From positions 117,907 to 181,906 of the forward strand of contig NZ_LT607659.1 of NCBI RefSeq assembly GCF_900095265.1: DNA of 64,000 bases, read 5' to 3'. Positions 29,081-39,224 of the stretch are shown one piece after another. Each line of letters begins with the position of its first letter. Positions within the stretch are counted from its first letter, which is position 1. The translations under genes and the position numbers were made by a program. Origin of the DNA: Janthinobacterium sp. UMAB-56 (GTDB taxonomy: Bacteria; Pseudomonadota; Gammaproteobacteria; Burkholderiales; Burkholderiaceae_D). Below the pieces are notes generated by a model. The model searched no databases, had not been told where the DNA came from, and was given only the letters and a program-made list of their open reading frames with translations.

Positions 29081-30178
29081 CTAGCCTGACATCTGGATGA
29101 AGAGTGCCCCGCCCGAAAAGAAAGCACAGGAAATGCGCATGCCATGCTGTGCCAGGAATTCGTCCGTGGCCCGGCGCGGCCCGTCACCATAAGCCCATGC
29201 ATAGTCGTCCATCACGATCCAGCCACCCGGCCTGACCAGATCGTACCAAGAAGCAATATCGGCCCGCACTTCGGCGTAGCCGTGGTTACCGTCGATGTGC
29301 AGCAGGGCAATTTTTCCACTGTACTGGGTCCGGCCAAAGGCCTCCGTCTCGACCACGCGATCCTGACGGTACGCGAGCGCCGCCTCCACCGATGGCAAGC
29401 GCAGATAGTTCACCATACCATTCGCATAGGGTAACAGGTTGATCTGGAAGACGGTCAGCGCTTCACTGGCATCCCACGCAACGTTATCGATCAGGTCACT
29501 CTTGTTTTCCTGCACCAGATGCTCGCTTGTCCACGGATCAACGCACAGCAGCTTGCCCGTGCCATGGCAACGCGCCAGGGAAGCGAGCACGAAGGCGGAT
29601 TTCCCCCACCAGCTGCCCACCTCCACCACGTCGCCTGTCGGGCAATAGCGGAAAACTTCGCACAGGGCGCGTATCTTTTCCTGGTCGCACATACCGGGGA
29701 TGGTTTCGGCATGCCGGAACAGCGCGGCAATTTCAGAGGCGGCGGTCGGCGGACGCTCGCCGCTGGCGGCCAGTCCGAACGGCTGCGCCAGCACTGCCTT
29801 GCCAAATGCGAGGGCGCGGGCATACGGTGCCATTTCACTGGCGAGCGGTGCGCTGTTGATCAGCACCAGGCCTGGAAAATCGTGCCCCAGGCGCCGCTGC
29901 AGGTAATCCCAAACCACGGGATTGGGCGTGTAGATACTGCCGACATCATGGGCAGAAACCGCCTGCCGCAAGGCCTCGTCGAATTCCGGCGCGGTAACGT
30001 AGGGGAGTTGCACCCAGCGCGAGTAACGCTCGCGCGCCGGGTCGTGCCCGAGCGAAGACGAACCCACCACCTCCATGCCATTCGCCAGCGCCTGGTCGAG
30101 GTAGACCAGCGAGCGTGGCATCCCTGCGGGAAAAATCAATACGCGCTTATTTATAATGTCCGCCTTTCCAATATTCAT
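29081..30178 (-). CDS. Two-domain protein: ATP-grasp-like N-terminal fold plus class I SAM methyltransferase
   Basis: 365 residues. Residues 10-150 (VLIFPAGMPRSLVYLDQALANGMEVVGSSSLG...SIYTPNPVVWDYLQRRL) resemble the Rossmann-like pre-ATP-grasp domain of carboxylate-amine ligases, but no ATP-grasp catalytic domain follows. From about residue 185 comes a Methyltransf_24-type domain: VVEVGSWWGKSAFVLASLA, LLCVDPW, LLHIDGNHGYAEVRADIASWYDLVRPGGWIVMDDY. It is the last of three minus-strand genes, 21 bases after the preceding one. It may methylate a sugar in glycan synthesis; the N-terminal role is unknown. Confidence 0.8.
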   Translation of the reverse strand: MNIGKADIINKRVLIFPAGMPRSLVYLDQALANGMEVVGSSSLGHDPARERYSRWVQLPYVTAPEFDEALRQAVSAHDVGSIYTPNPVVWDYLQRRLGHDFPGLVLINSAPLASEMAPYARALAFGKAVLAQPFGLAASGERPPTAASEIAALFRHAETIPGMCDQEKIRALCEVFRYCPTGDVVEVGSWWGKSAFVLASLARCHGTGKLLCVDPWTSEHLVQENKSDLIDNVAWDASEALTVFQINLLPYANGMVNYLRLPSVEAALAYRQDRVVETEAFGRTQYSGKIALLHIDGNHGYAEVRADIASWYDLVRPGGWIVMDDYAWAYGDGPRRATDEFLAQHGMRISCAFFSGGALFIQMSG

Positions 30179-30199
30179 CGATAGCCGATCCAGACAGGG

Positions 30200-39000: not shown

Positions 39001-39224
39001 ATGATTTCGTTGCCAAGGGCACGTATATCGCCAACGATCCGGCGCTGCTGGCCAATATCCGCAGCAATTTGCGCCAACTGATTGAAAATTCGGCCATGGG
39101 TCGCTCGGAAGTCATCGCCGCCGGTCTCGAAGGCGCCATGCGCGCCATGTGGCACCGCTGGTGCGAAGGCAAGGCAGCGGCCACCTTCGAGATTGAACTG
39201 GATTCTCATGAGGAAGTTGCCTGA
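36012..39224 (+). CDS. TPR-repeat protein with SPINDLY/O-GlcNAc transferase-type glycosyltransferase domain
   Basis: 1070 residues. Residues about 10-640 contain many consecutive 34-residue TPR units (pattern [33 protein letters not shown]). From about residue 670 comes a GT41 domain: [97 protein letters not shown]. GT41 enzymes O-glycosylate Ser/Thr in the cytoplasm; TPRs select protein substrates. It stands 126 bases before the first flagellin, so flagellin is the likely substrate (inference). ATG 36012 is chosen; the longer reading runs through promoter sequence. Confidence 0.92.
   Translation: [1070 protein letters not shown]

Follow-up and report, generated by a model that had tools for sequence, protein, structure and literature searches.

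What do eight genes, among them those for two methyltransferases, an aminotransferase and a large glycosyltransferase, do directly in front of a set of flagellin genes? The question is raised by a stretch of 64,000 nucleotides from Janthinobacterium sp. UMAB-56 (contig NZ_LT607659.1, positions 117,907 to 181,906; genome of 6.1 Mb in 82 contigs), called the window below. The eight genes encode the methyltransferases MT24 and MT23, the propeller proteins PropA and PropB, a DegT aminotransferase, a WbqC-family protein, a GNAT acetyltransferase and a transferase made of tetratricopeptide repeats (TPR) and a GT41 catalytic domain. We consider it probable that they form a flagellin glycosylation island serving a second, lateral flagellar system. 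A first-pass annotation of the window had arrived at this interpretation, which stands in outline, and had added a claim of novelty, which was too strong as islands of this kind are known. Site-specific swapping of N-acylation sets and a prediction for WbqC are additions made here.

Site and exchange of the island

Pfam matches confirmed the eight genes that had been listed directly 5' of the flagellins. They lie between the gene for ETF-ubiquinone oxidoreductase (ETF-QO) and five flagellin genes (Table 1), with the two methyltransferase genes and PropA divergent from the other five. Downstream of the flagellins, matches to FlhA, FlhB, FliR, FliP, FliS, FliK, FliL, a sigma factor and MotA were found. 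A further flagellin of the same genome, an open frame of 506 residues, is encoded on contig 2, and the window therefore carries a second, lateral-type flagellar system; LafA homologues are listed for Janthinobacterium in PMC5773237.

Among 40 genomes of the genus, 37 have GT41 and 39 a lateral-flagellin match, that of genome G174 at only 44% identity. In 33 of the 37 GT41-bearing genomes (a count that includes G174), a flagellin resembling the lateral set is encoded at most 15 kb from GT41. Detailed comparison covered 36 loci, the window and 35 others; G161, G167, G169 and G174 were excluded as their lateral locus was missing or fragmentary. ETF-QO, with protein matches of 91-100% identity, stands at the left end of all 36 loci (two of these cut). 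In 33 of them a gap of 5.5-16.4 kb, always with GT41, separates it from the first flagellin (the contigs of L177 and L178 stop within the flagellin or short of it), and the site is empty in L174, L175 and L176, where the gap measures 131-225 bp and holds no GT41. Recurrence of a GT41-bearing island at one position in 33 of the 36 loci is more than chance.

Locus L163 encodes a first flagellin 100% identical to that of the window. Alignment of the two loci by blastn gave about 95% identity over 25000-28944 and 96.9% over 39281-44549, and inside the island patchy matches of 67-75% in a different order. Against the empty-site locus L174, the match ends at 28943 and resumes at 39278. These breakpoints indicate that the whole island is swapped in one piece and that an empty form exists. 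The locus thus shows a glycosyltransferase with sugar genes beside flagellin and, between conserved flanks at a single site, a content that varies among relatives, as expected of a flagellin glycosylation island.

TPR-GT41 is present in 33 of the 36 loci and the DegT aminotransferase in 32 (32 of the 33 islands). The N-acylation sets differ: a hexapeptide protein alone in 12 loci (counting L151 on a 31% match), WbqC in nine including the window, KAS-III paired and joined by SDR and hexapeptide proteins in seven, acyl ligase with hexapeptide and other proteins in four, none recognised in one, and three empty sites. WbqC, KAS-III and ligase never occur in one island (9, 7 and 4 of 33; chance 0.005, relatedness ignored), and in L147, L150 and L152, which belong to the WbqC or KAS-III class, an acetyltransferase of the type seen in hexapeptide-only islands is encoded as well. 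Since each set could acylate an amino sugar and the KAS-III set resembles vioS/vioR/vioB, the comparison supports islands that start from viosamine (Qui4N) and differ in the group put on its amine.

As regards base composition, G+C content is 54-59% (2-kb windows) across 29001-35000 compared with a window mean of 61%, a dip that fits horizontal acquisition. The MT24, GNAT and GT41 genes individually have 61-64%.

The predicted donor sugar

For the window island we infer the following route and acceptor. RmlA and RmlB, encoded elsewhere, would provide dTDP-4-keto-6-deoxyglucose, which DegT would aminate to dTDP-Qui4N. WbqC would load the 4-amine with an amino acid (glycine, by analogy), GNAT would acetylate the added amino acid, MT23 and MT24 would methylate, and the two propellers would make a further change. 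TPR-GT41 would bind flagellin in the cytoplasm and move the finished sugar onto Ser/Thr before export. Transferase and aminotransferase would form the core, with the N-acylation set swapped among relatives.

DegT is predicted to be a VioA-like 4-aminotransferase yielding dTDP-Qui4N. At E 1e-60 the PDB gave a single match, 2po3, which we take to be DesI, an enzyme whose substrate is dTDP-4-keto-6-deoxyglucose. Further, DegT is 59% identical to the enzyme of the E. coli O121 O-antigen cluster. RmlA and RmlB were found above their cut-offs, near one another at two other places of the genome (contigs 3 and 18). The N-acylation genes VioS, VioB and VioR are not present in the window island. An ATG at 32466 is the more likely DegT start compared with a TTG at 32448. 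In L047 and L074, the genes for PropA and PropB flank a homologue of MT23 (81% and 76% identical).

WbqC matched its Pfam family PF08889 with 232.6 bits (cut-off 21.3). An AlphaFold model (pLDDT 91) had its best fold match in BshC (4wbd; Z 13.9 over 225 of 236 residues at 3.4 A, target of 540 residues; Foldseek E 2.7e-3) and its second in a class-I lysyl-tRNA synthetase (Z 11.8), with only 3 of 999 chains at Z 8 or above. Identity to BshC within the fold alignment is 10%, and a sequence search of the PDB gave no match up to E 1 and hence no sequence support for this kinship. BshC couples cysteine to glucosaminyl-malate at its amine, and because aminoacylation of an amine is the same kind of reaction, we liken the predicted WbqC reaction to it.

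The O121 cluster has the order rfbB-rfbA-DegT-WbqC-GNAT-wzx and thus shares DegT-WbqC-GNAT with the window, a likeness that extends to a 4-base overlap of the DegT and WbqC genes; the window proteins are 38% (WbqC) and 26% (GNAT) identical to their counterparts. In contrast to the reading proposed here, the O121 product goes to polysaccharide (wzx and wzy are present), and its cluster has no annotated propeller or GT41. Qui4N occurs with an N-acetylglycyl group, for which the O121 structure is cited (PMC3210612). By elimination among the O121 genes, WbqC and GNAT would supply the glycyl and acetyl parts of such a group. Among the titles listed by a literature search (at most 20 per list, most subscription journals lying outside its coverage), none dealt with this island or with the function of WbqC, and the titles of 12 papers containing the word WbqC did not point to its function either.

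Turning to the propellers, a model of PropB (pLDDT 83.5) matched the GH130 oligomannan phosphorylase 9fj8 best (Z 25.0) and also the mannoside synthase 9erg (Z 23.5), and mean column identity over 43 PropB sequences is 80%. Such folds and strong conservation would suit transferases or GH130-like phosphorylases that add a second sugar, so that flagellin would carry a di- or trisaccharide. However, GH43 and GH32 enzymes tie with GH130 (Z 24.4-24.6) and propellers are missing from five of the nine WbqC islands in the genus; we regard a second sugar as possible, on balance rather doubtful. PropB has the propeller fold expected of GH130, whereas Pfam matches of both propellers are weak and GH32N/GH130-like: PropA reached 18.6 bits with the GH130 profile (cut-off 26), PropB did not match GH130 at E 0.001 or below, and the GH130 profile match and the fold match differ in register. 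PropA probably starts near 31932 rather than 32118, because full-length homologues mostly align from residue 62-63. Secreted glycosidases are disfavoured, as no signal peptide was seen by eye and PropB is nearly invariant.

The transferase and its flagellin and polysaccharide contexts

The GT41 domain scored 159.8 bits with PF13844 (Glyco_transf_41; cut-off 25), and this profile matches one gene in the whole genome. Over 60 aligned rows, the catalytic His is kept in 53 (7 gaps), the Lys in 52 (1 Arg, 7 gaps) and the Asp in 56 (2 Asn, 2 gaps); these are presumably the equivalents of hOGT H498, K842 and D925. Flagellin-proximal GT41 open reading frames (ORFs) in 33 genus loci encode 871-1177 residues, with one exception of 248, and the window protein, initially described as giant, is thus of ordinary size for the genus. 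In L162 (genome G158), the flagellin-adjacent GT41 is cut to about 250 residues and a second GT41 in the island is full length.

We correlated pairwise distances over 29 of the 36 loci, leaving out L159, L162 and loci lacking a readable gene. TPR and flagellin distances correlated with r=0.92 and those of the GT41 catalytic part and flagellin with 0.79, compared with 0.18 for TPR and ETF-QO, 0.29 for DegT and flagellin and 0.35 for flagellin and ETF-QO. DegT often lies between the genes compared. For the seven long-flagellin loci, values were 0.88 (TPR) and 0.73 (catalytic domain). Across 28 loci (L169 is unclassed), the catalytic domain was related to the N-acyl class with TPR controlled (partial r 0.175, p 0.0025), whereas TPR was not with the catalytic domain controlled (-0.03, p 0.72). 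The pattern, small in effect, fits a TPR part for the acceptor and a catalytic domain for the donor. The central domain of two flagellins is clearly richer in Ser/Thr than the ends (0.38 and 0.33 vs 0.24), and that of the other three just slightly. Taken together, the position of GT41 near flagellin in 33 of 37 genomes, distances that track flagellin and a VioA-like DegT support the earlier proposal that TPR-GT41 puts an N-acylated, probably methylated amino sugar on flagellin.

The donor is not readable from the family, because the nearest PDB relatives of GT41 are SPINDLY and OGT-type enzymes (best matches SPINDLY 7y4i and 5djs). By this kinship, GT41 might put GlcNAc or fucose on flagellin, with the neighbouring sugar genes extending or decorating this first residue, and for the GT41 islands of enterobacteria PMC4875605 puts forward GlcNAc derivatives but leaves room for a wider specificity. 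We judge this to be unlikely: the Pfam scan recognised no second glycosyltransferase among the island genes of the window (although a propeller might be one), DegT accompanies GT41 in 32 of 33 islands and the catalytic domain tracks the N-acyl class. We tentatively propose that WbqC proteins are small free-standing enzymes of the BshC/class-I aminoacyl-tRNA-synthetase fold, which couple amino acids to nucleotide-linked amino sugars through the sugar amine. TPR-GT41 would then place the aminoacylated, acetyl-capped sugar on flagellin. Its two specificities would be separable, with TPR selecting the flagellin and the catalytic domain the N-acyl type, and relatives could thereby change the N-acyl "coats" of one flagellum by exchange of a single island. 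We give this combined proposal somewhat less than an even chance.

Flagellins of 380-391 residues pair with two GT41 genes in 7 of 8 islands and those of 283-295 residues with one in 21 of 22. Four tandem GT41 genes stand 5' of DegT-WbqC-PropB in L100 (about 1000-8100; G062 contig C1), a genome whose sole flagellin-family match is on a different contig. Further, GT41 lies 1-2 kb from a flagellin distinct from the lateral ones compared above in G032:C15, G104:C6, G071:C447 and G165:C11, and the pairing is therefore not limited to lateral flagella.

Elsewhere, the cassette was surveyed in the best 80 of 361 relatives, ranked by similarity to PropB, some loci being cut. PropB was present in 80, PropA in 79 (in loci picked by PropB similarity), WbqC in 77, DegT and GNAT in 72 each, an MT23-like gene in 67, GT41 in 25 and MT24 in 18. 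The order of matched genes, ignoring unmatched ones in between, was DegT-WbqC-PropA-PropB-GNAT-MT23 in 50 of the 80. Forty loci have full flanks; eight of these contain flagellar genes, all eight with GT41, and 22 contain polysaccharide markers (Wzx/Wzt/GtrA/GT2/Rml) without a flagellar gene, none with GT41 (Fisher 1.7e-7, relatedness ignored). The remaining ten have GT41 alone (seven) or neither (three). MT24 tracks GT41, occurring in 9 of 15 GT41-bearing vs 1 of 25 GT41-less full-flank loci (p 0.00015). One cassette thus seems, from gene neighbourhoods, to serve two delivery routes, with GT41 marking the protein route. According to the first-pass annotation, finding the gene set mostly at capsule or O-antigen loci without flagellins would speak against its interpretation. 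The sugar genes without GT41 are indeed distributed in this way (22 of 40 loci vs 8 flagellar ones), whereas GT41 is not.

It could be argued that the cassette sugar is destined for O-antigen or another polysaccharide, that the flagellin neighbourhood is a chance insertion and that GT41 acts on another protein. Polysaccharide loci are indeed where the six sugar genes occur most often, and two of the best 80 join GT41 to export markers without a flagellar gene; one flagellar locus lacks GT41. We hold this to be very improbable in view of the opposite GT41 counts in flagellar and polysaccharide loci with full flanks, the recurrence of GT41 and DegT at the lateral flagellin site across the genus and the lack of any match to Wzx, Wzt or GT2 among the nine window ORFs scanned with Pfam. 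For GT41-bearing cassettes, a polysaccharide-only reading was rejected, as GT41 and polysaccharide markers without flagellar genes never coincide in the 40 full-flank loci. A pseudaminic acid (PseC/NeuB) reading was likewise rejected: DegT is below the PseC cut-off (240 vs 423.5 bits), and a pseudaminic-type donor is unlikely because NeuB had no match in the window's genome, compared with matches in 9 of 14 control genomes.

Several observations weigh against viosamine-based glycosylation of flagellin as proposed above. Seven of the 15 GT41-bearing full-flank loci have no flagellar gene found within 10 kb. Both TPR (0.86) and catalytic domain (0.85) track flagellin equally in the 22 short-flagellin loci, so the division of labour between them rests on small partial correlations, and identical flagellins of G000 and G159 are paired with catalytic domains that are 79% identical. 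DesI is the best NCBIfam match of DegT, but at 306 bits compared with an equivalog cut-off of 650, and two WbqC islands (L156 and L167) have only distant DegT pairs (27-34%). Since GNAT is only 26% identical to the O121 protein and the O121 cluster holds a further acetyltransferase, the elimination argument for glycyl and acetyl is not tight.

Known systems and further features

The gene combination, at first not recognised as described, belongs to a kind known from the GT41 islands of Enterobacteriaceae (PMC4875605) and the viosamine island of Pseudomonas syringae, where modified viosamine on flagellin is described (PMC3927599). As in the P. syringae viosamine and P. aeruginosa PAK islands, there is a predicted viosamine aminotransferase, predicted 4-amine tailoring, a methyltransferase and a large dedicated transferase (VioT has 1,173 residues), and the KAS-III, SDR and hexapeptide genes of seven sister islands are like VioS/VioR/VioB. 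In contrast, the window has WbqC, GNAT and propellers in place of VioS/VioB/VioR and would act on lateral flagellins (PMC3927599). The enterobacterial islands are similar in their variable content, GT41 with a SPINDLY domain, DegT aminotransferases, methyltransferases and an rmlB often located elsewhere. They differ in host and in that nearly all their GT41 proteins have methyltransferase domains; "WbqC" is missing from the main text of that study, and the window island would serve lateral flagella (PMC4875605). Caulobacter FlmG also consists of an N-terminal TPR part, which binds flagellin, and a C-terminal glycosyltransferase, and acts on flagellin in the cytoplasm (PMC7591256). The window protein shares the link of TPR and glycosyltransferase to flagellin, whereas FlmG has 596 residues compared with 1070 here and needs pseudaminic acid, the NeuB-made donor for which the window's genome gave no NeuB match (PMC7591256). 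Descriptions of lateral flagellin glycosylation are limited in number (PMC3958885).

With the reading proposed here, the WbqC family would gain a testable function tied to a known O-antigen structure, and one sugar cassette would be shared by polysaccharide export and cytoplasmic protein glycosylation. Island swaps and empty sites would provide a natural series for the roles of flagellin glycans (phage receptors, predation, motility), and the swaps would be material on how TPR-GT41 picks donor and acceptor. A study of Burkholderia cenocepacia reportedly found a Qui4N derivative on flagellin.

Table 1. Features of the island and its flanks, in window positions
Feature	Position	Strand	Basis
ETF-QO, left flank of island site	27267..28943	+	Fer4_ETF_QO, ETFQO_UQ-bd
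Exchangeable island	28944..39280 (about)	.	blastn breakpoints, island lengths
MT24 methyltransferase (Methyltransf_24/TylF-like)	29081..30178	-	Pfam
MT23 SAM methyltransferase	30200..30949	-	Methyltransf_23, 5e-21
PropA, propeller enzyme, GH32/43/130 superfamily	30976..31932	-	Pfam, alignment of homologues
DegT, VioA/DesI-like aminotransferase, predicted dTDP-Qui4N (viosamine) maker	32466..33617	+	Pfam, NCBIfam, 2po3
WbqC-family protein, predicted BshC-like amino acid addition to sugar amine	33614..34324	+	PF08889, model, fold match
PropB, propeller, closest fold GH130 beta-1,2-oligomannan phosphorylase	34454..35422	+	model, fold match
GNAT N-acetyltransferase, predicted amino acid capping	35419..35877	+	PF00583, 3e-18
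TPR (about residues 1-640) and GT41 catalytic domain, predicted flagellin O-glycosyltransferase, 1070 aa	36012..39224	+	Pfam
Lateral flagellin 1	39351..40238	+	Flagellin_N/C
Lateral flagellin 2	40419..41288	+	Flagellin_N/C
Lateral flagellin 3	41465..42337	+	Flagellin_N/C
Lateral flagellin 4	42531..43412 (ORF from 42477)	+	Flagellin_N/C
Lateral flagellin 5, diverged, GTG start	43586..44464	+	Flagellin_N/C

An ORF of 365 residues without a Pfam match lies 3' of the flagellins (44521-45618) and likewise follows them in many genus loci. A search with the sigma-28 consensus found no site, and a generic promoter scan performed no better than on shuffled sequence. Identical, strong terminator-like hairpins at 40258-40283 and 41308-41333, 3' of flagellins 1 and 2, suggest separate transcription of the flagellin copies.

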